This document shows positions 3,001 to 64,000 of a DNA stretch of 64,000 nt, one piece after another. Where the stretch lies: NCBI RefSeq assembly GCF_021917145.1, contig NC_061073.1, forward strand, positions 16,513,942-16,577,941, written 5' to 3'. The notes beneath the pieces were generated by a model. It saw only the letters and a list, made by a program, of their open reading frames with translations, made no database searches and had not been told where the DNA came from. Numbering within the stretch: the stretch's first letter is position 1; every line of letters starts with the position of its first letter. Made by a program: the position numbers and the translations under genes. Source of the DNA: Hypomesus transpacificus (lineage: Eukaryota > Chordata > Actinopteri > Osmeriformes > Osmeridae).

Positions 3001-6000
3001 TTGCAAGGCCCATAACTCTGCCTAGGAAGGCCCTAGAGGCCCCAAAGTTGGCCTGGCCTGTTCATCAGGGTCCCCCCTACGGTCATATTTTCCATTGGAT
3101 TTGGACTTTTTTTGAGCCATATTCGCCTTGCCCTTTTGCAAGGCCCATAACTCTGCCTAGGAAGGCCCTAGAGGCCCCAAAGTTGGCCTGGCCTGTTCAT
3201 CAGGGTCCCCCCTACGGTCCATTTTCCATTGGATTTGGACTTTTTTTGAGCCATATTCGCCTTGCCCTTTTGCAAGGCCCATAACTCTGCCTAGGAAGGC
3301 CCTAGAGGCCCCAAAGTTGGCCTGGCCTGTTCATCAGGGTCCCCCCTACGGTCATATTTTCCATTGGATTTGGACTTTTTTTGAGCCATATTCGCCTTGC
3401 CCTTTTGCAAGGCCCATAACTCTGCCTAGGAAGGCCCTAGAGGCCCCAAAGTTGGCCTGGCCTGTTCATCAGGGTCCCCCCTACGGTCATATTTTCCATT
3501 GGATTTGGACTTTTTTTGAGCCATATTCGCCTTGCCCTTTTGCAAGGCCCATAACTCTGCCTAGGAAGGCCCTAGAGGCCCCAAAGTTGGCCTGGCCTGT
3601 TCATCAGGGTCCCCCCTACGGTCATATTTTCCATTGGATTTGGACTTTTTTTGAGCCATATTCGCCTTGCCCTTTTGCAAGGCCCATAACTCTGCCTAGG
3701 AAGGCCCTAGAGGCCCCAAAGTTGGCCTGGCCTGTTCATCAGGGTCCCCCCTACGGTCATATTTTCCATTGGATTTGGACTTTTTTTGAGCCATATTCGC
3801 CTTGCCCTTTTGCAAGGCCCATAACTCTGCCTAGGAAGGCCCTAGAGGCCCCAAAGTTGGCCTGGCCTGTTCATCAGGGTCCCCCCTACGGTCATATTTT
3901 CCATTGGATTTGGACTTTTTTTGAGCCATATTCGCCTTGCCCTTTTGCAAGGCCCATAACTCTGCCTAGGAAGGCCCTAGAGGCCCCAAAGTTGGCCTGG
4001 CCTGTTCATCAGGGTCCCCCCTACGGTCATATTTTCCATTGGATTTGGACTTTTTTTGAGCCATATTCGCCTTGCCCTTTTGCAAGGCCCATAACTCTGC
4101 CTAGGAAGGCCCTAGAGGCCCCAAAGTTGGCCTGGCCTGTTCATCAGGGTCCCCCCTACGGTCATATTTTCCATTGGATTTGGACTTTTTTTGAGCCATA
4201 TTCGCCTTGCCCTTTTGCAAGGCCCATAACTCTGCCTAGGAAGGCCCTAGAGGCCCCAAAGTTGGCCTGGCCTGTTCATCAGGGTCCCCCCTACGGTCAT
4301 ATTTTCCATTGGATTTGGACTTTTTTTGAGCCATATTCGCCTTGCCCTTTTGCAAGGCCCATAACTCTGCCTAGGAAGGCCCTAGAGGCCCCAAAGTTGG
4401 CCTGGCCTGTTCATCAGGGTCCCCCCTACGGTCATATTTTCCATTGGATTTGGACTTTTTTTGAGCCATATTCGCCTTGCCCTCTTGCAAGGCCCATAAC
4501 TCTGCCTAGGAAGGCCCTAGAGGCCCCAAAGTTGGCCTGGCCTGATCATCAGAGTCCCCCCTACGGTCATATTTTCCATTGGATTTGGACTTTTTTTGAG
4601 CCATATTCGCCTTGCCCTTTTGCAAGGCCCATAACTCTGCCTAGGAAGGCCCTAGAGGCCCCAAAGTTGGCCTGGCCTGTTCATCAGGGTCCCCCCTACG
4701 GTCATATTTTCCATTGGATTTGGACTTTTTTTGAGCCATATTCGCCTTGCCCTTTTGCAAGGCCCATAACTCTGCCTAGGAAGGCCCTAGAGGCCCCAAA
4801 GTTGGCCTGGCCTGTTCATCAGGGTCCCCCCTACGGTCATATTTTCCATTGGATTTGGACTTTTTTTGAGCCATATTCGCCTTGCCCTTTTGCAAGGCCC
4901 ATAACTCTGCCTAGGAAGGCCCTAGAGGCCCCAAAGTTGGCCTGGCCTGTTCATCAGGGTCCCCCCTACGGTCATATTTTCCATTGGATTTGGACTTTTT
5001 TTGAGCCATATTCGCCTTGCCCTTTTGCAAGGCCCATAACTCTGCCTAGGAAGGCCCTAGAGGCCCCAAAGTTGGCCTGGCCTGTTCATCAGGGTCCCCC
5101 CTACGGTCATATTTTCCATTGGATTTGGACTTTTTTTGAGCCATATTCGCCTTGCCCTTTTGCAAGGCCCATAACTCTGCCTAGGAAGGCCCTAGAGGCC
5201 CCAAAGTTGGCCTGGCCTGTTCATCAGGGTCCCCCCTACGGTCATATTTTCCATTGGATTTGGACTTTTTTTGAGCCATATTCGCCTTGCCCTTTTGCAA
5301 GGCCCATAACTCTGCCTAGGAAGGCCCTAGAGGCCCCAAAGTTGGCCTGGCCTGTTCATCAGGGTCCCCCCTACGGTCATATTTTCCATTGGATTTGGAC
5401 TTTTTTTGAGCCATATTCGCCTTGCCCTTTTGCAAGGCCCATAACTCTGCCTAGGAAGGCCCTAGAGGCCCCAAAGTTGGCCTGGCCTGTTCATCAGGGT
5501 CCCCCCTACGGTCATATTTTCCATTGGATTTGGACTTTTTTTGAGCCATATTCGCCTTGCCCTCTTGCAAGGCCCATAACTCTGCCTAGGAAGGCCCTAG
5601 AGGCCCCAAAGTTGGCCTGGCCTGTTCATCAGGGTCCCCCCTACGGTCATATTTTCCATTGGATTTGGACTTTTTTTGAGCCATATTCGCCTTGCCCTTT
5701 TGCAAGGCCCATAACTCTGCCTAGGAAGGCCCTAGAGGCCCCAAAGTTGGCCTGGCCTGTTCATCAGGGTCCCCCCTACGGTCATATTTTCCATTGGATT
5801 TGGACTTTTTTTGAGCCATATTCGCCTTGCCCTTTTGCAAGGCCCATAACTCTGCCTAGGAAGGCCCTAGAGGCCCCAAAGTTGGCCTGGCCTGTTCATC
5901 AGGGTCCCCCCTACGGTCACATTTTCCATTGGATTTGGACTTTTTTTGAGCCATATTCGCCTTGCCCTTTTGCAAGGCCCATAACTCTGCCTAGGAAGGC

Positions 6001-9000
6001 CCTAGAGGCCCCAAAGTTGGCCTGGCCTGTTCATCAGGGTCCCCCCTACGGTCATATTTTCCATTGGATTTGGACTTTTTTTGAGCCATATTCGCCTTGC
6101 CCTTTTGCAAGGCCCATAACTCTGCCTAGGAAGGCCCTAGAGGCCCCAAAGTTGGCCTGGCCTGTTCATCAGGGTCCCCCCTACGGTCACATTTTCCATT
6201 GGATTTGGACTTTTTTTGAGCCATATTCGCCTTGCCCTTTTGCAAGGCCCATAACTCTGCCTAGGAAGGCCCTAGAGGCCCCAAAGTTGGCCTGGCCTGT
6301 TCATCAGGGTCCCCCCTACGGTCATATTTTCCATTGGATTTGGACTTTTTTTGAGCCATATTCGCCTTGCCCTTTTGCAAGGCCCATAACTCTGCCTAGG
6401 AAGGCCCTAGAGGCCCCAAAGTTGGCCTGGCCTGTTCATCAGGGTCCCCCCTACGGTCATATTTTCCATTGGATTTGGACTTTTTTTGAGCCATATTCGC
6501 CTTGCCCTCTTGCAAGGCCCATAACTCTGCCTAGGAAGGCCCTAGAGGCCCCAAAGTTGGCCTGGCCTGTTCATCAGGGTCCCCCCTACGGTCATATTTT
6601 CCATTGGATTTGGACTTTTTTTGAGCCATATTCGCCTTGCCCTCTTGCAAGGCCCATAACTCTGCCTAGGAAGGCCCTAGAGGCCCCAAAGTTGGCCTGG
6701 CCTGTTCATCAGAGTCCCCCCTACGGTCATATTTTCCATTGGATTTGGACTTTTTTTGAGCCATATTCGCCTTGCCCTTTTGCAAGGCCCATAACTCTGC
6801 CTAGGAAGGCCCTAGAGGCCCCAAAGTTGGCCTGGCCTGTTCATCAGGGTCCCCCCTACGGTCATATTTTCCATTGGATTTGGACTTTTTTTGAGCCATA
6901 TTCGCCTTGCCCTTTTGCAAGGCCCATAACTCTGCCTAGGAAGGCCCTAGAGGCCCCAAAGTTGGCCTGGCCTGATCATCAGAGTCCCCCCTACGGTCAT
7001 ATTTTCCATTGGATTTGGACTTTTTTTGAGCCATATTCGCCTTGCCCTTTTGCAAGGCCCATAACTCTGCCTAGGAAGGCCCTAGAGGCCCCAAAGTTGG
7101 CCTGGCCTGTTCATCAGGGTCCCCCCTACGGTCATATTTTCCATTGGATTTGGACTTTTTTTGAGCCATATTCGCCTTGCCCTTTTGCAAGGCCCATAAC
7201 TCTGCCTAGGAAGGCCCTAGAGGCCCCAAAGTTGGCCTGGCCTGTTCATCAGGGTCCCCCCTACGGTCACATTTTCCATTGGATTTGGACTTTTTTTGAG
7301 CCATATTCGCCTTGCCCTTTTGCAAGGCCCATAACTCTGCCTAGGAAGGCCCTAGAGGCCCCAAAGTTGGCCTGGCCTGTTCATCAGGGTCCCCCCTACG
7401 GTCATATTTTCCATTGGATTTGGACTTTTTTTGAGCCATATTCGCCTTGCCCTTTTGCAAGGCCCATAACTCTGCCTAGGAAGGCCCTAGAGGCCCCAAA
7501 GTTGGCCTGGCCTGTTCATCAGGGTCCCCCCTACGGTCATATTTTCCATTGGATTTGGACTTTTTTTGAGCCATATTCGCCTTGCCCTCTTGCAAGGCCC
7601 ATAACTCTGCCTAGGAAGGCCCTAGAGGCCCCAAAGTTGGCCTGGCCTGTTCATCAGGGTCCCCCCTACGGTCATATTTTCCATTGGATTTGGACTTTTT
7701 TTGAGCCATATTCGCCTTGCCCTTTTGCAAGGCCCATAACTCTGCCTAGGAAGGCCCTAGAGGCCCCAAAGTTGGCCTGGCCTGTTCATCAGGGTCCCCC
7801 CTACGGTCATATTTTCCATTGGATTTGGACTTTTTTTGAGCCATATTCGCCTTGCCCTTTTGCAAGGCCCATAACTCTGCCTAGGAAGGCCCTAGAGGCC
7901 CCAAAGTTGGCCTGGCCTGTTCATCAGGGTCCCCCCTACGGTCACATTTTCCATTGGATTTGGACTTTTTTTGAGCCATATTCGCCTTGCCCTCTTGCAA
8001 GGCCCATAACTCTGCCTAGGAAGGCCCTAGAGGCCCCAAAGTTGGCCTGGCCTGATCATCAGAGTCCCCCCTACGGTCATATTTTCCATTGGATTTGGAC
8101 TTTTTTTGAGCCATATTCGCCTTGCCCTTTTGCAAGGCCCATAACTCTGCCTAGGAAGGCCCTAGAGGCCCCAAAGTTGGCCTGGCCTGTTCATCAGGGT
8201 CCCCCCTACGGTCATATTTTCCATTGGATTTGGACTTTTTTTAGCCATATTCGCCTTGCCCTCTTGCAAGGCCCATAACTCTGCCTAGGAAGGCCCTAGA
8301 GGCCCCAAAGTTGGCCTGGCCTGTTCATCAGGGTCCCCACTACGGTCATATTTTCCATTGGATTTGGACTTTTTTTGAGCCATATTCGCCTTGCCCTTTT
8401 GCAAGGCCCATAACTCTGCCTAGGAAGGCCCTAGAGGCCCCAAAGTTGGCCTGGCCTGTTCATCAGAGTCCCCCCTACGGTCATATTTTCCATTGGATTT
8501 GGACTTTTTTTTAGCCATATTCGCCTTGCCCTTTTGCAAGGCCCATAACTCTGCCTAGGAAGGCCCTAGAGGCCCCAAAGTTGGCCTGGCCTGTTCATCA
8601 GAGTCCCCCCTACGGTCATATTTTCCATTGGATTTGGACTTTTTTTGAGCCATATTCGCCTTGCCCTCTTGCAAGGCCCATAACTCTGCCTAGGAAGGCC
8701 CTAGAGGCCCCAAAGTTGGCCTGGCCTGTTCATCAGAGTCCCCCCTACGGTCACATTTTCCATTGGATTTGGACTTTTTTTGACCCATATTCGCCTTGCC
8801 CTTTTGCAAGGCCCATAACTCTTTCTAGGAAGGCCCTAGAGGCCCCAAAGTTGGCCTGGCCTGTTCATCAGAGTCCCCTCTACGGTCATATTTTCCATTG
8901 GATTTGGACTTTTTTTGACCCATATTCGCCTTGCCCTTTTGCAAAGCCCATAACTCTGCCTAGGAAGGCCCTAGAGGCCTCAAAGTTAGCCTGGCCTGTT

Positions 9001-9189
9001 CATCAGAGTCCCCTCTACGGTCATATTTTCCATTGGATTTGGACTTTTTTTGACCCATATTCGCCTTGCCCTCTTGCAAGGCCCATAACTCTGCCTAGGA
9101 AGGCCCTAGAGGCCCCAAAGTTGGCCTGGCCTGTTCATCAGAGTCCCCTCTACGGTCATATTTTCCATTGGATTTGGACTTTTTTTGAC
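1..9189. repeat. Satellite array, 135-bp monomer, about 68 copies
   Basis: A motif such as GGACTTTTTTTGAGCC recurs every 135 bp (positions 136, 271, 406, 541 and onward) from the left edge to about 9189. Monomers are nearly identical. Recurrent variants are C/T in the GGTCAYATTTTCC segment, CCCTCTT for CCCTTTT, and TGATCATCAGAG for TGTTCATCAGGG. Single-base deletions near 3219 and 8242 and a G-to-T change near 8512 break the long open frames. The last four or five monomers differ more (GACCCATATT, CTCTTTCTAGG). Because 135 is divisible by 3, frames of over 1,000 codons appear, but the same 45 residues simply repeat. I regard this as non-coding satellite DNA, perhaps pericentromeric or subtelomeric. 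The array continues beyond the left edge. Confidence 0.97.
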
Positions 9190-9829
9190 CATGCCATTGG
9201 ATGCCAAGTCAAATCTACTTTTAACCGTTTCACTCGTAAAATCATGGCACAAACCCTGTACTTCAAAAGCATACAAAGCTTAAACAGAAGGCAATTTAAT
9301 TCTCTGATCCTCCAGCATTCTTGGGGTTGGTGCTGCTGTGGTTTGATGGTTGATTCACAATTGGATTCACAAGTAGGGTGTTTTTTTGCTAACCTAGCAA
9401 CTATGCCTTGAGTTTGGAGGGATTCAAACCAAAATATCTTCAATGCGTTGCCTCTCTACTGCAAGGCTGTGGTCGGTAGACAGGAAAGTAGCCCATCCAA
9501 TCATTGCATTCGATCCAAATGCTGTCTAATCATTTTGTTCGGTCCAAACAAAATAATTGGTCGTGTTTTTAACAGTCCTGCAATGCCCACAGATATCGAA
9601 TGTGTATAATTTTACTGTCAAACCTTTAGATTTATTGGCTACTAATCAAGATGTGTTCATTTCAGAAAGATCTCAGAAGTTTATTTCAAAAAATATGACA
9701 AAATGCTGCACCAACACATTACATACTCATGCCTGTAAGGGGTTATTTAAGTTAAATGTTACAATGCGGAGGAGACGTTTGGTGTGATGATGTCACAGAG
9801 TCTGAGGAAAGTGACGGAGCTTGAGAAGG
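9190..9829. other. Unique spacer between satellite and tpcn2 stop codon
   Basis: No gene is recognised here. The stretch holds the 3' UTR of tpcn2 on the minus strand, with a candidate poly(A) signal at 9680-9685. The rest, up to the satellite edge, is unremarkable AT-rich sequence. A minus-strand frame over 9156-9443 lacks any recognisable domain. Confidence 0.6.
9680..9685 (-). terminator. Candidate poly(A) signal of tpcn2
   Basis: AATAAA on the minus strand (TTTATT on plus), about 145 nt downstream of the tpcn2 stop codon at 9830-9832. The spacing suits a short 3' UTR. Confidence 0.5.
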
Positions 9830-26875: not shown

Positions 26876-29800
26876 ATGGATTTAAATGCCATCATAGAAA
26901 ACATGGAAACAGGGGATCAAAATGCCGCATTAATGGCACTACAGACGTATAATAAAGAGGTAAACAAATCTGACTACCATTACCAAGTATAAAACCTGCG
27001 ACTTTTTACCCTTCTTTGATGATTGCACTTGTAAAGAATATCCTATTGATTTTAAGATGATCTCTTTCCCGTCATCAATCATACCATTTTGTTATGAAGT
27101 GCAACACTAACAAGCCGTCATGCCTCCTCAAAACAACAACATATTGTAGTTATTATAGTGATCTGAGAAGTGGCTAGTAGCTTCAGCGATTAGCAATGGC
27201 TCCAAAAAAAATAACGCTCATCAAATGACACAGTAGCCTACCATTACCAAGTATAAAACCTGCGACAGATGTCCAAGCCTGTATCGTATGCGATTCATTT
27301 TAGGCGCACACTGTAAAAAAATTCAGATTAAATTACAGTACTATTTTTGTAGATTATACGTGTTTTTTTCTGTATTTCTGAATGACAGGAAATACAGATA
27401 GAAAGACAATGGCCAAATGTAAATTTATATATTTACATTAAAATTACAGCAAAAATATTGTTACTTAAAAATACACTGAAAAACATTTCATTTAAAGTAA
27501 ATATTAAAAGTAGTATTTACTGGTAAAGAACAGCCTGTAATGTAATATCACAGATATATCTTGTAAATTTGGTACTGGAACGTGTCATAACATGCGTTTA
27601 TAATGTGAACATACACAATGTACATATGTTTCTACAATTACAAATCTTTTTTCCCCCACAAATCTGGTTTATTCAGGATAATAGTACAAATTTTAAATTA
27701 GAAATGCGTTTGTTTTACAGAAAAAGTCATTTTTACCGGCAAAGACCAAATAAATAGAATAAATACAATTATTTTACAGTTAATTGTAATTTTCCTGTAC
27801 CAAATTTACAAGACATATCTGTGATTTTACATTACAGGCTGTTATTAACCGGTAAATGCTACTGTTAATAATTAAACTTTGATGTAAAAATACAGCATTT
27901 TCAATTACATAAAAATATTCAAGAAAGCCAAAACACGATATCACAATTGACATGTTTATTCAAAACAAGTTGTGTGCACAACATACAGCATCCAGATCCT
28001 GTTATCAGCATCCAGATATTTACAACTATAGCTTTATATGATATATACATATATTATATATATTATATATATATATTGCTTACATAATGTATGTCTTTGA
28101 AGACACGTTAGACCGCTATCTAATTGGACAACATTCACACTCAGGGTGAACACGTAATTTATCCAAACTACAGTCCATCACATTACACATATCAAAACAG
28201 AACAAATACAACCACAAAACTCCAAACAATGCTTATCTAACTAAGTTTAAACCTTTAACTCTGTAGCTTTTCAGCTTGCCGCGGGGCATTCTGGGTAACA
28301 GAAGCGTTGCCGCTACACAACTATCTAATCAACTCTCCTTGGTCCTACTCTGGAGTTTTTACATATATTCATTTAGCAGACGCTTTTATCCAAAGCGACT
28401 TCCAAGAAAGGGTGTAACCGGTGTGAATCGGTGAAACTCACTCCTCAGGTATGTACTAGGCCACCTGCATCAACGACTAGCTAGCTATTCTTTGGCGTAG
28501 CTGGTAGTAGGTGCACTCGACATGGACTGCATGAAACATTTACATTTTACATTTTAGTCACTTAGCAGACGCTCTTATCCAGAGCGACTTACAGTAAGTA
28601 CAGGGACATTCCCCTCGAGGGAAGTAGGGTGAAGTGCCTTGCCCAAGGACACAACATCATGTGGCACGGGGGGAATCGATCCGGCAACCTTCGATTACTA
28701 GCCCGACTCCCTCACCGCTCAGCTATCTGACTCCCGAAAGGCGGCGAGAGTAGCCGCTTGCAGTCGGTGAGGAGTTGAAAACAGCTGCAGCGCTGCATGA
28801 AGTCAGTCAAACGTAGTGGTCGCGCTTGTCAAGTCAGAGGTCGTGAGTTCGAGCCCAGTGAGTGGCGAACGACACCTTGTTGTGACGCAGCGTGGCTATG
28901 TCTGTTACATACTGTCACAAGAGCTTTACTAAAAGTGCATTGGTCAATGATCATAAACAACTAGATAGCTCCAAAAAGGTTTTTGCAGGCTTTTGTAGTC
29001 CGATGTTGACTGGTTCATGCTGGGATTGCATGAAGTCAATTACCCAAGCTCAGTTCACAATTCAAGGTTCTTATGTCTAAACCAAAGAACTTATTAAGAA
29101 GTTATTTGTCCGTGGGATGAAAGTAAATATCTGCAAAATAACTGTTAAAATAGCTAGTTTTGATCAAGTGAAGTTATATGTTTTAACAGAACATTTTGGT
29201 GAAAATGTTATTAATATAAAAAAAAAATGTATTTCTAAGTAACAATATTTTGCTGTAATTTTAATGTAAATATATACATTTAAATTTTGCCATTGTATTT
29301 CTATCTGTATTTCCTGTTATTCAGAAATACAGAAAAAAACATGTATAATCTACAGAAAAATACTTTAATTTAATCTTTTTATTTTTACATTGTAACAGCG
29401 CCTCCACTGGCACATCAGAATCAGAATTAGAAGGATTTTATTCGCCATGAATGTTTGCACAAACAAGGAATTTACTTTGGCAGGGAGGTGCATACATTAA
29501 ACATATAGGAATATTGAAACTTAAATATGTGGACTAACTATATAAAAGGAGCAAAGTCTAGCTAATACTAAGGGTGGTCTAGCTAATACTAAGGGGAATA
29601 AAAAATAAGATATAAAATATAAGTAGCCCTAATTAACAATCTAGATACAATTGTGCAAATTGAAATGTGCAGGGTGTCATTGTGCAGATTGTGATTTAAA
29701 GTCAGTCTGAGTCCTTGGCCTTGTTAAAGAGGACAACAGCGGATGGGAAGAAACAGTTTTTGTGGCGTGAGGTTTTGGTCTTGATGGACCGCAGCCTTCT

Positions 29801-32800
29801 GCCGGAGGTGAGTAGCTGGAACAGGGAGTGTCCAGGGTGGGAGGGGTCGGCCACAATCTTCCTCGCTCGCCTCAGGGACCTCGAGGTGTGCAGATCCTCG
29901 AGGGAAGGCAGATTGCAGTCGATCACCTTCTCAGCAGTGCGGATGATACGCTGCAGTCTGCTCTTGTCCTTGGCAGTGGCAGCAGCGTACCAGATGGTGA
30001 TAGAAGAAGTGAGGATGGACTCAATGATGGCTGTGTAGAAGTGCACCATCATTGTCTTTGGCAGGTTGAATTTCTTCAGCTGCCGTAGGAAGTACATCCT
30101 CTGTTGTGCTTTTTTGGTGAGGGAGCTGATGTTCAGTTCCCACTTGAGGTCCTGGGAGAGGATGGTGCCCAGGAAGCGGAAGGACTCCACAGTGCTGACT
30201 GGGGAGTCACTCAGGGTGATGGTGGTGAGTGGGGCTGTGTTCTTCCTGAAGTCCACAACCATCTCCACTGTCTTAAGAGCATTGAGCTCTAAGTTGTTCT
30301 GGCTACACCAGGTCACCAGGTTGTCCGCTTCCCACCTGTAGTCAGACTCGTCCCCGTCAAAGATGAGTCCAATAAGGGTGGTGTCGTCCGCAAACTTCAA
30401 GAGTTTGACAGACGGATGACTCGAGGTGCAGCTGTTGGTGTACAGGGAGAAGAGCAGAGGAGAAAGGACGCAGCCCTGAGGAGATCCGGTGATGATGGAC
30501 CGGGAGTCAGAGACTTGTGTTCCCAGCTTAACGCACTGCTTCCTGTCAGACAGGAAGTCTGTGATCCACCTGCAGGTGGAGTCGGGCACGTTCAGCTGGG
30601 AGAGCTTGTCCTGGAGCAGGGCTGGGATGATGGTATTGAAGGCAGAACTGAAGTCCACAAACAGGATCCTGGCGTAGGATGCTGGGGAGTCCAGATGCTG
30701 TAGGGTGAAGTGGAGGGCCATGTTAACGGCATCATCCACCGACCTGTTGGCTCTGTAGGCAAACTGCAGTGGGTCCAGGAAGGGGTCTGTGATGGATTTG
30801 AGGTGTGCCAGCACAAGGCGATCAAAAGACTTCATTACCACAAAGGTCAGGGCGACGGGTCTGTAGTCATGAAGTCCTGTTGGCCTTGGCTTTTTGGGCA
30901 CAGGGATGATGGTGGAGGACTTGAGACAGGCTGGCACATGGCATGTCTCCAGGGAGGTGTTAAAGATGTTTGTAAACACAGGAGACAGCTGGTCAGCACA
31001 GTGCTTGAGGGTGGCAGGAGAGACAAAGTCTATTTCTCTATGTCTGAGTGTTATGTCTCTCTCTATGTCTGAGTGTTATGTCTCTCTCTCTCTATGTCTG
31101 AGTGTTATGTCTCTTTCTCTATGTCTGAGTGTTATGTCTCTCTCTCTCTCTATGTCTGAGTGTTATGTCGCTTTCTCTATGTCAGAGTGTTATGTCTCTC
31201 TCTCTGTCTGACTGTTATGTCTCTGTCTCTCTGTCTGAGTGTTATGTTTCTCTATGTCTAAGTGTTACGTCTCTCTCTCTCTATGTCTGAGTGTTATGTG
31301 TAGTATCAACATTAATTCCTGCCGTTTTGTATGGTAGAGAACACAGCCGAGAGACTAGACTCTGTGCCTCACAGAGGAACTGTTAGCATCTGTATTTTGT
31401 TTTTTACTCACACAAACACTCGCACCTCCCTATTGACAGTGAACCAGCCCTGAAGTCAGTTGTCCAGGTAACACATCTTAGGTGATCTACTGTCAACAAT
31501 CTTTACTTCTCTGCCTTCAAATGCAACATTGATGTGGTTTGTTTTTATTTAGTATAATTGCCTGTCTACAGGTGTGTATTACCTGTAATATAAATGTAAA
31601 TCAGCAGTTACATAATTTGTAACAAAACAAGTGAGATCTGGAGCTGGAAAGTAACCTTTGCCAACAGAATATTGGATCGGGAAAATAAATATTTTTTGGA
31701 TAATCTGAATTGGTGTTCTCCTGTGTCATCTGCGCAAGTGTAGTGACGCGCCACCTGGAACTATCCAATAGGACTATCAATTAAATTAGAAGCTTAGTGT
31801 GAAATTCAGAATATAGTTTTACCTCCACGTTATCTCACAGGTGCAGGTCTCCAACATGGAGCCCTGCTCAAAGCTGGTTGGGATTACTCAGAGCAGGCTG
31901 TCAAGACACAAATAGCAGGCCTGTCAAATCCTGCCCATCAAACCGGCTCCCACCTGATCTGAGCTTAGAACTAGGTGCTTGGCAGACTTTGGAAGTGTAC
32001 GTTACTCTCAGAAAACCAATTGCTCACCTAATGTTCCAAATTGACCAGAGAAATAAAGACAGAAAGATGACTTGTACTTGGACAAAAATAGATGGCTTCT
32101 CTTTCACATTTCGTTAACAAAGGTTCGAATGTTACTCTGAGAAACCTGCTGTTTCTCCTTTAATCTTCTCTGTGACCTAACAGCAATACAGAGTTAATCT
32201 CCCTTACTCTTCAGATTTTCAGTTCAACCAAGGTTTGGGAATCTGACTGAGGCTGACTTTTGTATTTTTCAGAGGGAAGGTGGGGCAGGAGGTGCTGTGC
32301 AGGGGGACAGACTGGAGGTAGAGGGACAGAGCAGAGTGAAAATATAACATTTGAAGGCAATATGCTGCGCAGCATCTTTGGTCATAAAAATGCATCCAAC
32401 TCAAATGACAAAGTAAAATCATGTTCTGTCAACTTCTTTCCTTCAGCCAAGGAGTTTAGCCAAGGAGTTTAGCCTTTCTCCTGCTCTCAAGGCACCTCAG
32501 CACAGAGCACAATGTTCTAAAGCCACATCACATGAGCTGATCTGACATGTTATTGATTCTTCCTTTTGTATCTCTTCTGCTTGCAGAAGGCTCATTGCTT
32601 CAAATTTAATACAGAGGATGAGGCGGAAAGAGAGGTACTTAATTTTGTTTCTTAAATTTGACTATATACTGTCTATATACAGTTTTCTTTTGCTGCTTGC
32701 AACTATAATGTATATTTATAAAATCGACATAATACTTTTACTAAAGGAACAGTGCTATTCAGAAGTGTCATTTTGCATTTCATTTGTACATGTAAATTAC

Positions 32801-46307: not shown

Positions 46308-49300
46308 CTACAAGCTGGTGGATTTAAATATTGAGCGGACTATTTGCGTCAAACACTGGCCAAACTCTTCCAGGATGATTCTCTCAGCTTGAGTCAGAGA
46401 GTACAACTCCTTCTCTGCCTCCTCAGCCTGGGCCAACAAACAGCCGCATGTGGCTTCCACAACATCGAGCGTGATGCACGACAGAGGACACCTATCAACA
46501 CACACACAAACACATATAAAGACACCACATACAAACACACACAAGCACACAAACACACACAGCCAAGAAAACGCATCTATTAGCAATTGTTGTTTTGCTG
46601 GAGTTTGATTATGTCTGTAGTAGTAAAAGCACACTATCTTTAATGCAATACTTTTCCCTACTCTGCATCCAACCGGGTTTAACTAACAGTACAGTAGCTC
46701 ACTTGTTTTTCTGGCAGTTGGCCTTCTTGTAGAAGGTGGTGTCAGGACTATCCCAGACGACAGTCCGTCTCGCTGGGCTGTCCTCGTAGTTCCTGCAGCC
46801 CACACACTTACAGGTCGAAGAGCACATGATCTTGGCCTGTGTGAAGGATCAAGGGTCACCAAGGGGTCAGGACACATTCTGGTACCTCTCGGTAGTGTGA
46901 ACGTAGTGTTGAACAGACCAGCCCATCAGAGACATGTTAGCTTGGAATAGCTTCACCCTTAAAATTATTGTTTTGTATTTTCTGATCCACTGTTAAGTTG
47001 ATAGTTAACCAGCTATATTCCACTCATGTAGTGTTTTTTTTAGAGTTCCCTGTGAAATCGTTGTCTCATGTCTATCCACACATGTAATCCTTGTGCCAGA
47101 TCTATATTCCACTCATATGGTCAGGTCTACAGGAAGGGCATCATATGGTCAGGTCTACAGGAAGGGCATCCTATGGTCAGGTCTACAGGAAGGGCATCCT
47201 ATGGTCAGGTCTACAGGAAGGGTTAGGGTCAGGTCTACAGGAAGGGCATCCTATGGTCAGGTCTACAGGAAGGGCATCCTATGGTCAGGTCTACAGGAAG
47301 GGTTAGGGTCAGGTCTACGGGAAGGGCATCCTATGGTCAGGTCTACAGGAAGGGTTAGGGTCAGGTCTACAGGAAGGGCATCCTACGGTCAGGTCTACAG
47401 GAAGGGCATCCTATGGTCAGGTCTACAGGAAGGGTTAGGGTCAGGTCTACAGGAAGGGCATCCTATGGTCAGGTCTACAGGAAGGGCATCCTATGGTCAG
47501 GTCTACAGGAAGGGCATCCTATGGTCAGGTCTACAGGAAGGGTATCCTATGGTCAGGTCTACAGGAAGGGCATCATATGGTCAGGTCTACAGGAAGGGTT
47601 AGGATCAGGCTACGGCCTGATGATGAGGAGCTGCAGTACCTCATAGCACTCGCAGTAGTTCTTCAAACAGCCTGATCGTTTACAGTTGCAGCCTTTGTTG
47701 TGACGACCTTTGACCTCTCCTGATTTACCCTGGCCAATCTTGGGCCTGAACGCCTCTGGGTTCCTGTCCAGGCAGATCTTCAAACACACACAGTTTAACA
47801 TCTGTCACAGCTCTCTCACTTTGTGGCATCACAAACATACAGCTCAGGCCTTGTTAGGGTTAGGGTCATGCTTTCACCTCTCCTGCTTCACTGCATTTGA
47901 ACTCCAAATACATTTGATTGACTTGGAGCATCCCTCACAAAAGAAATCTTTCATCTTTCACCCTTCATAATTTTTTTAATAAATAATACAAATCTAAATA
48001 AAAGGATTTCAAATAAAGCAAAACTATTCTTAGAGTTCCACTTGGATACAAAAGGAGCAGAGTGTGTGCAAATACCCTAGCAGGGAATGAAGCTGGTCGA
48101 CAGTCCACTGAGATACGGAGACACAGTAATTGTGTGACCTGCTCACTTCAGTGGAACACTACTCTATCAGCTCAATAACAGGTTTGCCTGGTTAATTCAG
48201 GTGTCAAGGAGTCAGTCAGGCAGAACAGCAGGGAGTCAGTCAGGCAGGACAGCAGGGACATACAGAGGGATCCCCAGGACTTCTGCTTCCTGCGTCCTGA
48301 TCTGCGTCAAGCTACAGGTGTTATGTCCTGATCTGCATCAAGCTACAGGTGTTATGTCCTGATCTGCGTCAAGCTACAGGTGTTATGTCCTGATCTGCGT
48401 CAAGCTACAGGTGTTATGTCCTGATCTGCGTCAAGCTACAGGTGTTATGTCCTGATCTGCGTCAAGCTACAGGTGTTATGTCCTGATCTGCGTCAAGCTA
48501 CAGGTGTTATGTCCTGATCTGCATCAAGCTACAGGTGTTATGTCCTGATCTGCGTCAAGCTACAGGTGTTATGTCCTGATCTGCGTCAAGCTACAGGTGT
48601 TATGTCCTGATCTGCGTCAAGCTACAGGTGTTATGTCCTGATCTGCGTCAAGCTACAGGTGTTATGTCCTGATCTGCGTCAAGCTACAGGTGTTATGTCC
48701 TGATCTGCATCAGGCTACAGGTGTTATTTCCCTTCACAATTCTGAAAACAACTGAAACCTGCCTGGTCTTTTACTGGACTTTTTTTTTACCTTAATGACA
48801 CTATACTAGCTGTCTGTATTTCGACAAATATTTGTAATATAATTTGACAGTTAATTCCAGACTTTCCAAATGCACTATTTGTACAGTATGTCACGTGACT
48901 CAGATTCAGGCTTTCATGGGGGCAGGTGCCTACCTTGATGGCCTTGTATCTCTCAGACTCATGATCTTCATTGTTGAAACAGTTGACACAGTTACAGTTG
49001 CTGCACACATCACCATTGGCAAAGCAGTCACAGTATCTGGAATAGACAGATTCACAGCTCATATGGAGTGTTAAGAACTAATATGGGGAGTCAGATGGCT
49101 GAGCAGTGAGGGAGTCGGGCAGGTCGCCGGATCGATTCCCGGATCGATTCCCCGCCGTGCCAAATGACGTTGTGTCCTTGGGCAAGGCACTTCACCCTAC
49201 TTGCCTCGGGGGAATGTCCCTGTACTTACTGTAAGTCGCTCTGGATAAGAGCGTCTGCTAAATGACTAAATGTAAATGTAATATGTGGAGATGTGTCTAG

Positions 49301-55570: not shown

Positions 55571-56070
55571 GTGTCAGGGGGTCAAAGGGGGGGTGTTTCA
55601 TTAATTATATTATTATTAGTGTTTTTGTTGTTGTTATTAATAATTGCTCTGACTTGCATAAGAAAATATTTGACACATGGCACTGACTATTCAACCAAAT
55701 ACAAAGTATCTATTCAATTTCTCTGTGTGTGTGTGTGTGTGTGTGTTGGGGGGGGGGGGTGTAAGAGAGAGAGAAAGAGTCTGTGTTTGAGCGTGTAACA
55801 TTTACTCATTTTGTAGACATATGCTTACCATATATGCTGTCCAGATGTTTAATCTCTTACCGGTCTGTTAAACTACAGCCATCCCATAAGGTAAACACAC
55901 ACCGTAGGAACTGGATCCATGGTTATCAGTTACAGTTTGTTGTTTGTGTCAAACAAGTTGTGAATCAGTTGTAACATTAAAACAGGAGATCATGACTTAC
56001 TCGGTGCTCAAAGTGATGCTTGAGCTCCAGTGGGTTGCTCTGTGGATGAACGAAACTTTCTGAAAACGTT

Positions 56071-56175
56071 AGGTGCGTTCGACATGTACTACGGCTGCAT
56101 GAGACGACCGGCGAGAGTAGCCGCTTGCAGTCGGGGAGGAGTTGAAACGGCCCTGTGAAGTCGGACATTCCAGCT
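56071..56175. mobile_element. MITE fragment related to 28509-28812
   Basis: Shares GCGTTCGACATG, GCATGAGACGACCGGCGAGAG and TAGCCGCTTGCAGTCGG with the element at 28509, here without a SINE. It therefore represents the unoccupied site. Confidence 0.6.
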
Positions 56176-56518
56176 TCTTGTGGTTTGCTGCGTTGACGTC
56201 AGTCATGGCTGATCAATCGCTGTTTGCTTACTTTACTTTAATAATAATTAAACGTAGTCTTTCCGTTAGTGAAGAGGCGGACTAAAACCTTTTCTTCAAC
56301 ACATTTTATTTCACAATTTTTTTCACAATTTCTAACGAACTACAATAATGACTTTAGAGGAACTACAACTCTGCATTCATCTGTCTGAGCGTGGTGCACT
56401 GTGGGAAGGCAAGCGATGGCAAGCGATTTGCGTGGCTGTAGTGGACACGCACCTGATGGCAGTAGACGACGGGATTTACTTGCATAGTTCCCTGTAAATA
56501 ACAGACGCTGATACAGAA

Positions 56519-59500
56519 ATGTCTACCTCGTCTTCCAACACACGTTTTTCGACAGACAAAGAAAGTAGAAGACGGAGAGTAGTAGCCGACAACCCGGGTG
56601 AGTCACATGATGTAGCCTATTGGTGAAATAAAAACACCACTGATACTAATACTTGCTTTGTAAACAGAAAACACGTTGTTGGTGTCTCTCAGGGGAATCA
56701 GTGGTATATGTCATCAACCGTAACCTCTTAACAGGTTTAAAAAAACATACAGTGTATAAACTATCAGTGTTGCAGGAGTCCAGACCCCACATCCCTAAAT
56801 TCTGGTCGGCATCCTGAAGCATAATATGATTATGTGTCTCTAAGTTCATGTAGCGTTAGGTCAGCCACCCACCCCTGCCATCTGTCTCTGTGTGTCATAG
56901 GCATGCCATACACTCCTCTTTCCTATATATAACATAACATGTCCACAGTGACTGGTCTATAGTAACAGTCCCTCATACATTGTAACAATAGTTAAAACAT
57001 GTTTTACATACCAGTCTCTCACATCTGTCAGCACACCTCTGGGTCTGTGACCCCCAGGGCCCACCACAAGAGCCTGCCTGTGAGCGCCTGCCCAGACACA
57101 CCCCAGACCTAGTGGAGACACACAACCCCACATCCAGCACCCTGCACCCTGGACTCTGCCCCTCCAAATGCCTGGGGTCTACACACCTACGTGAGTACAG
57201 AGGCCTCCTCTAACCTTCAGCTCCTTGGGTCATTCCCTGAGCTGTGCACCTTTAAATGCCTGATGTCGTTGCTGTTTGTGGATGTGTGTCGCCTCTTAGG
57301 ACCTGGCCAGCTCTCCTCTCAGGACATGTGTGAGGAGGTCAGCAGCCGAACCACCCTCAGAGCAGAGAATGAAGTGGAAGCTAATAAGTTAGCCAACAAC
57401 TACAGGGTAGGAGAGACAGTCCTGAGCAGCAAACAGACTTGCATTCTTCCAAACCCCAAATATATAATTGTCCCCTTTTTTTACAATCCATGCTTTGCGT
57501 GTGCATCTAATTGTGTTCTCAGTTTGGCTTCAGAAAGTGGAAGAGTCATGTGACAGAACGACCATTTGAAGTCAGGTCTGATGTCGTAAAGGAACTGTAC
57601 TCCGAGCTCACCGTCATTAAACCACACACAGGTGAGGATGTCAGAGTCGTACAGTCCAAATCAAGACAACGTGAGATGAATCATGCTTTAAAGTAGATGG
57701 TACGTCTTTGTAGCTTAGTTGGTCCTAATCATGTAACTCCTATCTGTCTCCCTCTATACTTTCTTTCTTTCTGTCCTTCTCCATTCAGGGTTCTTGATTA
57801 CCTGTGGAAATGTGGTGTATGTGTTTCTGTTTGGCTGGTGGCTGTCTCTGACCTACCTCGTGGCCAGCACCCTCATGTTCCTCAGCATCATCGGAGCGCC
57901 CTATGGTATGACTGTGGAACCCAGTGGAAGTAGATAAACTCACTTCCTAGAGGACCTAAGATGGCACACTAGGGAAGACCCACTTTCACGTTTGGTACAG
58001 ACCTCTATGTGTTACCATAGCGGCCATGTTGGATGGAAGATGATTCCAGTGACTCAGCAGCACACCTTCTTCTCATTACAGGTCAGCTCTGCTGGAATTT
58101 GTCATGCTACTTCCTGTGGCCTTTTGGGAAATTCATTCAGGAGGTACTCTACCCCCCCACTTCCCACCCTTCATTCAGGAGGTACTCTACCCCCCCACTT
58201 CCCACCCTTCATTCAGGAGGTACTCTACCCCCCCACTCCCCACCCTTCATTCAGGAGGTACTCTACCCCCCCACTCCCCACCCTTCATTCAGGAGGTACT
58301 CTACCCCCCCCACTTCCCACCCTTCATTCAGGAGGTACTCTACCCCCCCCCCCCCACTTCCCACCCTTCATTCAGGAGGTACTCTACCCCCCCACTTCCC
58401 ACCCTTCATTCAGGAGGTACTCTACCCCCCCCCCCCCACTTCCCACCCTTCATTCAGGAGGTACTCTACCCCCCCACTTCCCACCCTTCATTCAGGAGGT
58501 ACTCTACCCCCCCCCCACTTCCCACCCTTCATTCAGGAGGTACTCTACCCCCCCCCCCCCCACTTCCCACCCTTCATTCAGGAGGTACTCTACCCCCCCC
58601 CCCCCCCACTTCCCACCCTTCATTCAGGAGGTACTCTACCCCCCCCACTTCCCACCCTTCATTCAGGAGGTACTCTACCCCCCCACTCCCCACCCTTCAT
58701 TCAGGAGGTACTCTACCCCCCCCACTTCCCACCCTTCATTCAGGAGGTACTCTACCCCCCCCCCCCCCACTTCCCACCCTTCATTCAGGAGGTACTCTAC
58801 CCCCCCACTTCCCACCCTTCATTCAGGAGGTACTCTACCCCCCCCCCACTTCCCACCCTTCATTCAGGAGGTACTCTACCCCCCCCCCCCCACTTCCCAC
58901 CCTTCATTCAGGAGGTACTCTACCCCCCCCCCCCCCCCCCACTTCCCACCCTTCATTCAGGAGGTACTCTACCCCCCCCCCCCCCACTTCCCACCCTTCA
59001 TTCAGGAGGTACTCTACCCCCTCCCCACTTCCCACCCTTCATTCAGGAGGTACTCTACCCCCCCCCCCACTTCCCACCCTTCATTCAGGAGGTACAGATC
59101 TGATGTCTCTGATCTCCTTCCCCACCCCCCAACACCACAACCATCTGTGTGTTTCTTTCTACCTGTCCTTCCTCCCTCTCACTGTCTGTTTCCCTTTATC
59201 TGTCCCTCTCCGTTTTCTATTTGCCTGTCTATTCCTCCAAATCTCCTGTCTATTGTTACAATTAGGGTTAGGGCATCTATACTGACCCTGGCCTCTCCTA
59301 TCTTCTATTACCATTGATCTTTTTTCAAAGTCAAACATAGCTAGCTATTTGTTCAAGGCCTCTACTCTCATTTCCTCATGAACTGACAGTTTTGTGACCG
59401 AAAGCAGAAGTCTGTATTTCCTTTTATCGCAACAAGTCTTTTCAACAAACAGCCAAAGAGTGTCTTAATGCCCACCCCAACCAACAATTTGTCTTTATGT

Positions 59501-62418
59501 TATATAGATCAAGAAAAAGGTTAAAAAGTTATACGGTATTGATATGCACTGGGTTGTGTTCCGTTCCGGGTTGGGATTGAACTAGGTGCCAAACTCCACC
59601 TCTCTTCCTCTCCTGCTCCAGGTTGGAGGTGGGGTGGGGAGGGACCCAGGCTGTGAGGATGTCCCAGTGGAGGTGGATGAAAACAAGGACAGCTCCCCCA
59701 TTCTTCTGCCCTCACCCACAGAGGGGCCCTGTGCAGACCCGCCCCCTACAGACCTGCCCAGGCCCTATTGGGTAAGAGCTGCCACTCAGTTGGATACTAG
59801 GGGTATGCCATTCTGATGCAACACATCGTGGGTTGCTTGTTGAAAAGGTACTTGTTGACATGACTTTGCATCATGTTTTTCCTATAAATATCTGTTAAAA
59901 TATATAAATAGAGAAAATCAAGTACTGATAAAACATAAGGTACTGTACATATACAACAGTTAGTTCTGACCAAGTCATTTGATTGGACAAGAGACCAAGA
60001 AGATATTTGACAAAAACAGCACTGGGACTTTTAATTTATGTGTGTGCCTCCGCTTACATTAATGACCATTATCTATCAATACAAAGTTTGTGTTTTTTGG
60101 AAACAGTCCAGTGGAGTTGCAGAACAATTTTGTGTTGTCAGAGCCAAATAAATGATTAAATAATCAAAAAATTATAGTCGCTTTGTTTACTAATTATTTG
60201 CGCTTGTAGAACTGTTATATTAAGGAAAAATATGAGTTAATTATACGACACACCTGTAAATTCATGTCATGTGTGTAACATGTAGCTACGTGCAAGCACC
60301 TATGCGTGGCTGCTGCTGGCATACCCTATTCTGGCCCTGGCCCACAGTCTGGCCTGCCTCCTGGCCTGGACCCTGGTCTTCACCATCCCTGTGGCCAAGA
60401 TGAATGCCCGCACCCTGCGTGTCATCCTCCTCATGCCCCCAGAGGCCGTCGCTGTCTCCAGCTGCTTCCCGAGGAAGGTGAGCAGACTAAAGTGAAAGGT
60501 CAACATTGAAGGTGAGGCGTGCATTCTAACCAGTCCTCTGTGTTCAGCATCCGACCAGTGAGAGCCGGGCGCTCCTGTGCTGTTACCATGCTGTCAACTG
60601 GTACTACTACAAGTACACCGTGGATGGAATTAATGTGTTTGCTGCCAGTATCCTTTAATCCCCAAAGTGTGTGTGTAACCGTGGCCATTTTGATGAATTC
60701 AAATCCTTAAACTGCCATCCAGACCTCCTTCCTCTGGTGATTGTTGCCCTGGTGATTGGCTATGTTGACAAGGACAACCAGTTCGCCAGCTCCGAGGCCA
60801 AGTTTGCTATGACCATCTGCTCCATCATCCCACTGTCTTACTACATTGGGATGGGCATTGCCAGGTGAGCTCACACAAAGACACTCAGTGCTATTAATAC
60901 ATTTAAAAAGCATCCAATCACAACAATCCCGTTGGCCAGGCAAATAGTGCAGTGATGCCGTGTTTGCAGTATCTCAGCCCAGAGTAACTTTGCTGTGGGC
61001 GCATTGGTGAACGCCACCTTTGGGTCCATCACGGAGATGACCTTCTATATCACTGCCCTGCTCCGCGGCCACAGGGAGGGGAACACCTGCCTGCAGGAGA
61101 TGGTGAAGGCTGCCCTGACTGGAACCTTGCTGGGCTGCATCCTCTTCCTTCCTGTGAGTTGGACGCACACACAAGCCTGGGGCAATTACAGAGTTCAATG
61201 ATGAAATGTTCTCAGTTGTTCCAAGTGAAACTATGTGTCTCGTGGTTGCATTCGCATTTGATTTGTTCACGGTTGTCTGGTAGAGGACTAATCTGGTGGC
61301 TGTCTCTACCAGGGCATCTGCATGATCATAGGAGGACTGAAGCACCCAGAGCAGAGGTTCAACAGCCGCTCTGCTGGCGTGAGCTCTGCCCTGCTCTTCA
61401 TCTCTGTGGGAGGTGAGGTGACTTTGGACCAGTGGCCCCAATACTAGCCCTGACACTACCACAAATCTAGATCAACACAACCCCAACACCACACCAACAC
61501 TGCTGCAAAACCACCACAAAACTCTGGCTCATCCTTCCTGCCCCTCTTCTTTATCCTGTTGTGACCTCCTGCCCCCCCCCCCAGGCGTGTTTGCCCCCAC
61601 ATTGTTCTCCAAGGCATATGGACACCTGCTGTGTGAGGGCTGCACCAACGCCACGGGAAACACCAGCGGACCCTTTGTCTGCCGTAACTGCCACTACGAC
61701 CTGGTGGGCAACGCTAACCTGCATGGAGCACTAATTCACACACGCCAAACCTCCATCCCAATCTCATAACACACATAACACCCCCACCAGCCCTCACCAT
61801 ACACACATCACAGAGCAGCAAAGTATTGTGCAACATACATATACTGCATGCCTTTCTTTCTTATGTTTCCATTTTATTTGTGTTTTATTCAGAGTGAGAA
61901 CAACGACACACTGTTCCACAACCACATTGAGTAAGTCTGACAGCTGAGAACAGAGGTTTGTACACAGTCAATCTTGATAGTGTGATCAATCTGTGTGTGT
62001 GTGTTTTGTGTTCTCATTGCAGGCCACTGGTATACTCCGTCTCTGTCCTTCTGCCTGCTGCCTACATTATTGGCCTCATCTTCACTCTAAAGACACATTC
62101 CTACATTTATGATATTCATGTTGGTGAGGGACAGGGTGAGAGGGGCACACACACACCACATGCACAAAGACAACCCTCATCATGAATACTAATGTGCAAC
62201 CATATGTCTACCACAAAAATCAAGTGTGTTTTGAGTGTTTGAGTTGTTCCATCATGTTGTCTGTTGTAGCTGTGTCCAGCCACCAGGGGGCGGTGGTGCA
62301 CTGGTCCCGCTGGCGGTCCTTCCTCATCCTTATTGTGGCCACCCTCCTGATGTCTGCCTGTGCTGACCTTCTAACAGAGCACATCCAGCCCATACTGAGC
62401 CAACCTAATATCTCCCAG
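56519..62418 (+). CDS. cax1: CAX-type cation/H+ exchanger, 3' end outside window
   Basis: Exons: 56519-56597, 57032-57190, 57300-57406, 57523-57631, 57789-57905, 58082-58143, 59622-59771, 60286-60477, 60548-60647, 60723-60864, 60970-61153, 61313-61412, 61585-61703, 61893-61930, 62023-62123, 62270-62418, then donor GTAAAC. That is 636 codons in phase, so the gene is partial. CAX proteins swap Ca2+ or other cations for protons across vacuolar or endolysosomal membranes. Residues 1-150 are hydrophilic and may be regulatory. Helices start at about 153 (FLITCGNVVYVFLFGWWLSL). The exchanger core holds GALVNATFGSITE (416-428), a form of the cation-binding alpha motif with E428, and later SACADLLTEHIQPI, the second repeat's counterpart. 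A cysteine-rich loop (CEGC, CRNCHYD) lies between. The donors after exons 9 (GTATCC) and 13 (GTGGGC) are non-ideal. The symbol follows the zebrafish gene. The donor of exon 6 is repeated 24 times. Confidence 0.88.
58132..59095 (+). repeat. VNTR made of 24 copies of the cax exon 6/intron 6 junction
   Basis: The sequence TTCATTCAGGAGGTACTCTA followed by a C run and ACTTCCCACCC repeats with a period of about 37-48 bp, set by C-tract length (about 7 to 18). The first TTCATTCAGGAG is the coding end of exon 6 (58143) and GTACTC its donor; 22 identical internal copies follow. The last copy (near 59084-59095) leads into unique sequence (GTACAGATC). Frames of 350-440 codons through it are artefacts. 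Confidence 0.96.
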
Positions 62419-62454
62419 GTAAACACACACACAAATATGAGTTTCAAGCATATA

Positions 62455-64000
62455 CAGTGCCCTCCAAAAGTATTGGAACAGTGAGGCGAATTCCTTTATT
62501 TTTGCTGTAGACTGAAAACATTTGGGCTTGACATCAAATAATGAACGTGAGACCAGAGATCAACGTTTCAGCTTTTATTTCCAGGTATTTACATCAGGAT
62601 CTGATGCACAACTAAGAAAATATCACATTTTGTTTGAATCCACCCATTTGTCATGTGAGCAAAAGTATTGGAACAGATATACTTAAAACATATTTAAGTG
62701 AATAAGACTTAATATTTAGTTGCAAATCCTTTGCTTTCAATAACTGCAGCAAGTCTGTGACCCATTGACGTCACCAAACTTTTGCATTCTTCCTTTTTGA
62801 TGCTTTCCCAGGCTTTCACTGCAGCCTCTTTCAGTTGTTGTTTGTTTTGTGGGGTTCCTCCCTTCAGTCTCCTCTTAAGCAGGTAAAATGCATGCTCTAT
62901 AGGGTTTAAGTCTGGAGATTGACTTGGCCAGTCTAATACCTTCCATTTCTTGCCCCTGATGAACTCCTTTGTTGTTTTGGCAGTGTGTTTTGGGTCGTTA
63001 TCTTGCTGCATGATGAAGGCTCTGCCAATCAGTTTGGTTGCATCTTTCCTTAAATTGGCAGACAAAATGTTTCTGTAGACTTCCGAGTTCATTTTGCTGC
63101 TGCCATAATGTGTTACATCCTCAATGAAGATTAATGAGCCCGTCCTAGAAGAAGCCATGCAAGCCCAAGCCATGACATTACCTCCACCGTGTTTCACAGA
63201 TGAGCTTGTGTGTTTGGGATCATGAGCAGTTCCTTTCTTTCTCCAAACTTTAGCCTTTCCATCACTTTGGTAAAAGTTAATCTTTGTCTCATCAGTCCAT
63301 AAAACTTTGTCCCAGAATTTTTGAGGTTCATCTCTGTACTTTTTGGCAAATTCCAGCCTGGCCTTCCTATTCTTCTTGCTAATGAGTGGTTTGCATCTTC
63401 TGGTGTAGCCCTTGTACTTTTGTTCATGAAGTCTTCTGCGAACAGTAGATAGTGATACCTTCACTCCTGCCATCTGGAGGTTGTTGCTGATCTCACTAAC
63501 AGTTGTTTTAGGGTCTTTCTTTACAGCTCTCACAATGTTTCTGTCATCAACTGCTGATGTTTTCCTTGGTCTACCTGTTCGACGTCTGTTACTTAGTACA
63601 CCAGTAGTTTTCTTTTTCTTCAGGACATTCCAAATGGTTGTACTGGCTATGGCCAATGTTTCTGCAATGGCTCTGATTGATTTTCCATCTTCTCTAAGAC
63701 TCACAATTGCTTGTTTTTCACCCAAAGACAGCGCTCCGGTTTTCATGTTGTTTTCACCTCTGAATACAGTCTGCATAGACAAAACCTATCTTACCCAATC
63801 TGAACCTGAGTGTAGACATTCAGTGGTATTTATTGATTGAATAATGTATGTAATAGGACACACCTGGGCAACAAAACACACCTGTCAGTCATATGTTCCA
63901 ATACTTTTGCTCACGTGACAAATGGGTGGGTTCGAACAAAAAGGTGATATTTTCTAATTTGTGCATCAGATCCTGATGTAAATACCTGGAAATAAAATAT
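62455..64000 (-). mobile_element. Tc1/mariner transposon with intact transposase, right end cut
   Basis: The left end CAGTGCCCTCCAAAAGTATT follows a TA at 62453-62454. An inner TIR repeat (GTGAGCAAAAGTATTGGAAC) lies near 62657. The inverted right arm begins at about 63895 (GTTCCAATACTTTTGCTCAC) and runs off the window. By symmetry with the left arm about 140-200 bp are missing. It sits in the last visible cax intron, antisense to the gene. Confidence 0.95.
62709..63782 (-). CDS. Tc1-like transposase, uninterrupted, 357 aa (DD34E)
   Basis: This is the cut-and-paste transposase of the surrounding element, acting in the nucleus on the element's terminal repeats. The first part has paired helix-turn-helix segments (SIRAIAETLAIASTTIWNVL, then NLQMAGVKVSLSTVRRRL) joined by the AT-hook-like GRPRK. 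The catalytic domain shows the D of LWTDETKINF, the D of QQDNDPKHTA and the E of DLNPIEHAFY, spaced as DD34E. No stop or frameshift is present. The usual start is probably the internal MKTGALSL, 12 residues after the first methionine, giving about 345 aa, normal for the family. Confidence 0.93.
   Translation of the reverse strand: MSMQTVFRGENNMKTGALSLGEKQAIVSLREDGKSIRAIAETLAIASTTIWNVLKKKKTTGVLSNRRRTGRPRKTSAVDDRNIVRAVKKDPKTTVSEISNNLQMAGVKVSLSTVRRRLHEQKYKGYTRRCKPLISKKNRKARLEFAKKYRDEPQKFWDKVLWTDETKINFYQSDGKAKVWRKKGTAHDPKHTSSSVKHGGGNVMAWACMASSRTGSLIFIEDVTHYGSSKMNSEVYRNILSANLRKDATKLIGRAFIMQQDNDPKHTAKTTKEFIRGKKWKVLDWPSQSPDLNPIEHAFYLLKRRLKGGTPQNKQQLKEAAVKAWESIKKEECKSLVTSMGHRLAAVIESKGFATKY

Follow-up and report, generated by a model that had tools for sequence, protein, structure and literature searches.

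What becomes of a splice site when the end of a coding exon, together with its donor, is turned into the unit of a long tandem repeat: is one copy used and the rest discarded, or does the array itself act on the transcript? This question is raised by an array at the end of exon 6 of a CAX-like gene in the 64-kb window (the whole stretch of DNA analysed here). An initial annotation had described a series of identical 5' splice sites and offered three roles for it: modulation of cax splicing, a decoy for U1 snRNP, or simple tolerance because the first site wins. Judged by its sequence the host gene is a CAX-like cation exchanger, with YccF and Na_Ca_ex domains in one conceptual protein. Its exon borders come from a hand model made without cDNA, in which all splice sites are predicted; the 15 modelled exons (2-16) join in phase with no stop. 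The modelled product matched the Pfam families YccF (PF03733, 64.1 bits, E 1.8e-17) and Na_Ca_ex (PF01699, 31.9 bits, E 1.5e-7), both above cut-off. Na_Ca_ex was matched over one stretch only, a second stretch giving no Pfam match in a model that ends before the 3' end of the gene. Four relatives were found in the PDB: YfkE, a vacuolar calcium ion transporter and two vacuolar cation/proton exchanger 1 chains. Residue 172 (WPFGK) is the last of the YccF match, FIQE begins at 173, and exon 7 starts in phase 0. The coordinates are collected in the table.

Table. Position of the repeat, its splice-site-like elements and the modelled exons around it (window coordinates)
Feature	Position	Strand	Remarks
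Junction minisatellite (exon 6 / intron 6)	58132..59095	+	23 full units of 38-49 bp and a 16-bp final copy
First 5' splice site GTACTC (presumed authentic)	58144..58149	+	phase-0 join to exon 7; weak score
First of 23 acceptor-like sequences acttcccacccttcattcag|GAG	58159..58178	+	before GAG of copies 2-24, each 3 nt upstream of donor
Last copy, donor GAG|GTACAG and TGA (59101-59103)	59080..59103	+	
CAX-like gene, modelled exons 2-16, 601 codons	57058..62418	+	exon 1 and 3' end outside model
Modelled exon 6, 62 nt; end of YccF domain, then FIQE	58082..58143	+	AG/GT borders, phase 1-to-0 joins
Modelled exon 7, Gly/Pro/acid-rich linker after YccF; presumed splice partner	59622..59771	+	

TRF reported the array with a period of 38 and 23.4 copies (score 1375). 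An exact scan found the 16-mer TTCATTCAGGAGGTAC 24 times in the window, every copy within the array and spaced 38-49 bp from the next; with 24 exact 16-mers in register a chance model is unnecessary. These results confirm the 24-copy array that had been annotated. It was also correctly recognized that the exon 6 end and its donor are the repeat unit itself: copy 1 consists of the final 12 nt of modelled exon 6 plus the donor GTACTC, and 23 copies follow after this predicted border. The 23 full units fall into ten distinct types and measure 38 bp (eight units), 39 bp (three), 41 bp (three), 42 bp (one), 44 bp (three), 45 bp (three), 46 bp (one) and 49 bp (one). They differ only in the length of the C-run (7-18), at one T/C site (C in 3 of the 23 full units, otherwise T) and by one T within a C-run. 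A block of 136 nt (58425-58560) recurs exactly at 58756-58891, the expected outcome when several units duplicate together. Both the C-run variation and the duplicated block are seen inside one array, on a single haplotype, and suggest turnover. As a possible source of the intronic part of the unit we considered the intron after the array. This was rejected: the best ungapped match (15/22) was equalled by 204 of 2000 shuffles and is not significant.

Are the repeated donors good donors? Identity from -3 to +6 (GAG|GTACTC) holds for 23 of the 24 copies and breaks down at the last, which reads GAG|GTACAG, so that the annotated series of identical donors is one site shorter than proposed. The repeat donors scored weakly (-0.93 and -0.59) with a general donor matrix. 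With a matrix from the same gene the exon 6 donor obtained a leave-one-out score of -1.8, ranking 14th of 15 modelled donors; one of the 14 others scored below it, and 68% of the 3405 other GTs in the window scored as high as the copy-1 donor. The gene-specific matrices come from the 15 modelled junctions of the gene, a small set; true sites were scored leave-one-out, array copies against a matrix built on all 15 acceptors and the background with full matrices. Agreement of the repeat donor with U1 is limited to AG|GTA, positions +4 to +6 being off consensus. Given this weakness, nothing in the sequence of copy 1 favours it over the other copies. The modelled exon 9 donor (CCA|GTATCC at 60647) scores lower still than that of the repeat; its border may be misplaced or its intron unusual. 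We also considered a self-hiding donor hairpin (GGUA-CUC-UACC, -4.7 kcal/mol for a 19-nt piece) that would leave the last donor alone open. It was rejected on local accessibility: the predicted value for the donor 9-mer is at most 0.0004 for every one of the 24 copies, the last among them. Among the 14 other modelled donors six are as low as the array copies and eight are higher, and 9.4% of other positions are less accessible than copy 1.

A different signal arises where the C-rich end of one unit meets the exonic start of the next. Here acttcccacccttcattcag|GAG is formed, giving the internal units the layout acceptor, 3 nt, donor (TTCAG|GAG|GTACTC). With the gene's own matrix copies 2-24 scored 8.57-8.76 as acceptors, above 12 of the 15 modelled acceptors (leave-one-out) and at a level attained by 1.25-1.37% of the remaining 3430 AGs of the window, in a matrix that contained the exon 5 acceptor (ccattcag|GG), which resembles the repeat. 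Copy 1 has no C-rich lead and scored 3.7. Exon 6 and the array together contain 24 matches to the branch-point pattern yUnAy, in the form of the TTCAT that opens every copy. Taken together, weak donor scores and high acceptor scores make the array, on paper, better as an acceptor array than as a donor array. The acceptor-like AG sits 3 nt before the AG that touches GT. The latter, which would make a strict recursive site (AG|GT, zero-length exon), scored at background (-0.83 at copy 2, a value reached by 32% of 3430 AGs). According to passages of PMC5829739, PCBPs are able to activate acceptors with C-rich tracts. The acceptor of exon 13 (61565-61584, cctcctgcccccccccccag) also has a long C-run; a C-rich acceptor is thus present elsewhere in the CAX-like gene.

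No stop interrupts the array in the three forward frames (71 stop triplets lie on the reverse strand), and read-through in the exon 6 frame would terminate at the TGA in the table. Copy 24 follows copy 1 at a distance of 948 nt (316 codons) and hence shares its frame. As a sign of coding, the open frames were rejected: when the 38-bp unit was randomized 20,000 times by mononucleotide and 20,000 times by dinucleotide shuffling, 46% and 47% of the sequences, respectively, were stop-free in all forward frames as well, and the agreement of copy 24 is a 1-in-3 event by chance. The frame to exon 7 is kept by 11 of the 24 donors (copies 1, 4, 8, 11, 12, 15, 16, 17, 20, 23 and 24), and the other 13 lead to early stops; the 23 later donors hence divide into ten in frame and 13 with a premature stop. 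C-run lengths are the least reliable part of any read. Since C-runs are hard to sequence, the frame of distant copies is unreliable.

In our judgement the locus is quite probably a recently expanded, neutral minisatellite of the kind published as a "mirage", with copy 1 as the main donor and copies 2-24 silently removed in the intron. A segment across the exon 6 / intron 6 border would have been duplicated, and slippage or unequal exchange would then have multiplied it up to its present 24 copies. Duplication of several units at once would have left the recurring block, while the C-runs drifted. Copies 2-24 would now lie within a lengthened intron 6 and leave with it, presumably in an array of polymorphic length. 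That the copy-1 donor is the main site we infer from the exon it closes, which at 62 nt is of normal size; use of a later copy would lengthen this exon and, at copies 2 and 3, disrupt the reading frame, so copy 1 is expected to be used. Minor isoforms are also to be expected: with a frameshift from donor 2 or 3, with 38 Pro-rich residues inserted from donor 4, and with one added Glu codon from an internal acceptor-donor pair. Three points speak against this neutral reading. The copy-1 donor is weak and has no better sequence than the later ones. The acceptor-like sequence of copies 2-24 could interfere with splicing, and by analogy downstream copies might be used, as passages of PMC4526556 describe two downstream repeat units serving as donors in human IFI6. 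With regard to the initial annotation, its view that splicing from a later copy would add Pro-rich junk or shift the frame agrees with the frame counts above. Tolerance because the first site wins is the best supported of its three roles, by analogy to lancelet genes, whereas those of U1 decoy and regulator found no support, and the donor is weak. Its picture of mainly a donor array was right in anatomy but incomplete, as the donor is weak and copies 2-24 are acceptor-like; it had also overlooked the open forward frames with copy 24 in frame, the differing last donor and the fact that the phenomenon is a published one.

How surprising is a repeat at such a place? Three other minisatellites in the window have a TRF score > 300 (27 bp at 31028, 28 bp at 47116 and 31 bp at 48294), so arrays of this type are common in it. 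The 14 modelled introns provide 28 borders in 5361 bp, and a 38-bp segment placed at random would span a border in ∼19% of cases (28 x 37 / 5361); at such odds it is not unlikely in itself that a repeat should sit on a splice border. The noteworthy parts are the copy number and the acceptor-donor form.

Two other readings would give the array an active part in splicing. Several copies might serve as alternative donors at meaningful levels, as in IFI6, producing Pro-rich CAX insertions between YccF and the exon 7 linker together with frameshifted transcripts. The donors identical from -3 to +6 in all but the last copy, the ten later donors in frame (copy 24 among them), the lack of forward-frame stops and the human precedent (passages of PMC4526556) are in line with this, and so is the insertion point, which lies four residues (FIQE) beyond the YccF match and ahead of the Gly/Pro/acid-rich linker. 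However, from the two copies closest to exon 6 the frame runs into premature stops, shuffled units have open frames almost as often as not, the phase of copy 24 is a one-in-three chance, the frame of distant copies depends on C-runs that are hard to sequence, and donor 24 would require a 1010-nt exon; we regard this use as unlikely. Alternatively, copies 2-24 might act as TTCAG|GAG|GTACTC modules. Splicing of copy 1 to an internal acceptor rebuilds the same donor 3 bases on, so intron 6 could be removed stepwise with one Glu codon gained per step, whatever the C-run length. The high acceptor scores of copies 2-24 (set against copy 1), the repeated branch-point pattern and the activation of C-rich acceptors by PCBPs (in passages of PMC5829739) all point in this direction. 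But the exon junction complex represses donors near a fresh junction, as stated in passages of PMC6224609, the strict recursive AG|GT is at background, and the acceptor scores derive from only 15 acceptors, that of exon 5 with its likeness to the repeat among them. The process would moreover need a 3-nt exon and one-unit introns of ∼35-46 nt. Exons and introns of these sizes fall under the usual vertebrate limits, and steps of at least two units would be required. Hence we hold stepwise removal to be very unlikely, and yet more doubtful the version in which allele length determines the mix of CAX isoforms that differ in the Glu run following YccF. If it were true, repeat polymorphism would diversify the protein while most of the repeat stays untranslated.

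Possibly the copy number, or the array itself, is an assembly or sequencing artefact. No platform copes easily with C-runs of up to 18 nt or with near-identical units repeated 24 times, but an ordered map of ten unit types with a recurring block is unlike a simple assembly loop; we therefore think an artefact highly improbable, the exact C-run lengths being the doubtful part. As for an array that binds U1 snRNP as a decoy, or otherwise tunes splicing or expression by allele length, many identical GT sites do lie beside the presumed authentic donor. Against such a role stand the U1 match confined to AG|GTA, the low predicted accessibility that all 24 copies share with 6 of the 14 other modelled donors, and the Rfam search, which returned no match at gathering score in 56000-64000. 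We scarcely credit it.

Further elements were noted elsewhere in the window. The start (1-9192) is filled by a 135-bp satellite of 68 copies with 99% matches (TRF). Minisatellites at 47116-47598 (28 bp x 17.8) and 48294-48731 (31 bp x 14.1; both TRF) lie in the region of a reverse-strand frame (48790-49077) matching the tesmin/TSO1 CXC domain (PF03638), and the first of them is, by eye, ∼45 nt into the intron from a putative reverse-strand donor. One end of the 27-bp minisatellite (31028-31299) is overlapped by a LINE-like reverse transcriptase frame (29705-31075, reverse strand, PF00078). An open frame at 34457-35167 matches Ric8 (PF10165, E 3.6e-34), and a Tc1-like transposase frame of 358 aa (62709-63785, reverse strand, PF01498 and PF13358) lies beyond the last modelled CAX-like exon; Tc1-like elements, like CAX genes, are well known in fish.

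Minisatellites across splice junctions are a rare but named and published phenomenon. In IFI6 (6-16), Turri et al. (1995) reportedly described a minisatellite supplying multiple splice donor sites. The array presented here likewise repeats a splice donor in its units (GAG|GTACTC in 23 of 24, GAG|GTACAG in one). In human IFI6 two downstream units are used as donors and three mRNA species result, according to passages of PMC4526556. A model of intron gain by Rogers (Hellsten 2011, as cited in the passages of PMC3443670) has tandem genomic duplication of AGGT create new potential donors and acceptors. Duplicated AG..GT sequence has this potential here as well, but in the model an exonic segment is duplicated and a new intron arises between the duplicates; in the CAX-like gene an existing border was duplicated, the unit consisting, by the hand model, of 12 nt of exon and at least 26 nt of existing intron. 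Like RS-exons, for which passages of PMC6224609 describe an acceptor closely followed by a donor that could be rebuilt, our units show both sites in close succession; unlike strict recursive sites they have 3 nt between AG and GT. In human paralogues variable tandem repeats at exon-intron boundaries may form new introns (passages of PMC2812944). Intronic minisatellite polymorphism is known in fish genes from PMC3045353, the passages of which on this topic hold no splice-junction case. Nor was a fish case of a splice-junction minisatellite among the matches listed, where coverage of teleosts is limited, and absence from print is not implied.

If the first site simply wins, the array is an ordinary tolerated minisatellite. 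Long mirage arrays are nevertheless natural experiments on splice-site choice: near-identical donors compete in them, and here acceptor-like sites too, with little besides position to distinguish one from another, and cDNA would reveal directly if place in the array is enough to settle the choice. A case with 24 copies in a vertebrate would extend a phenomenon published, in the passages cited, for IFI6 and some paralogues in humans and for genes of lancelets, and would illustrate a step that could precede the gain of an intron or exon. The closest counterparts are the mirages of lancelets, described in passages of PMC3087553 as minisatellite-like duplications of intron-exon borders in BflGb6, BflGb9 and, by citation, Adh3. 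Many of their copies bear AG/GT signals, splicing is apparently regular, and the copy number of BflGb6 differs between two haplotypes. Imperfect mirages in PGBD5 were added in PMC3902484, which also cites TnC and whose passages report undisturbed splicing. As in these genes, tandem copies extend across an exon-intron border in the CAX-like gene and carry AG/GT signals (CAGGAG|GT in 24 of 24 copies). Lancelet mirages affect both 5' and 3' borders. Our array differs from them in belonging to a CAX-like gene in fish, in its copy number (24 versus three and six in BflGb6) and in the length of its units (38-49 bp versus 150-160 bp in BflGb6 and BflGb9 and 10-72 bp in Adh3), and it is unlike them in that each unit places an acceptor-like site 3 nt ahead of a donor-like one.
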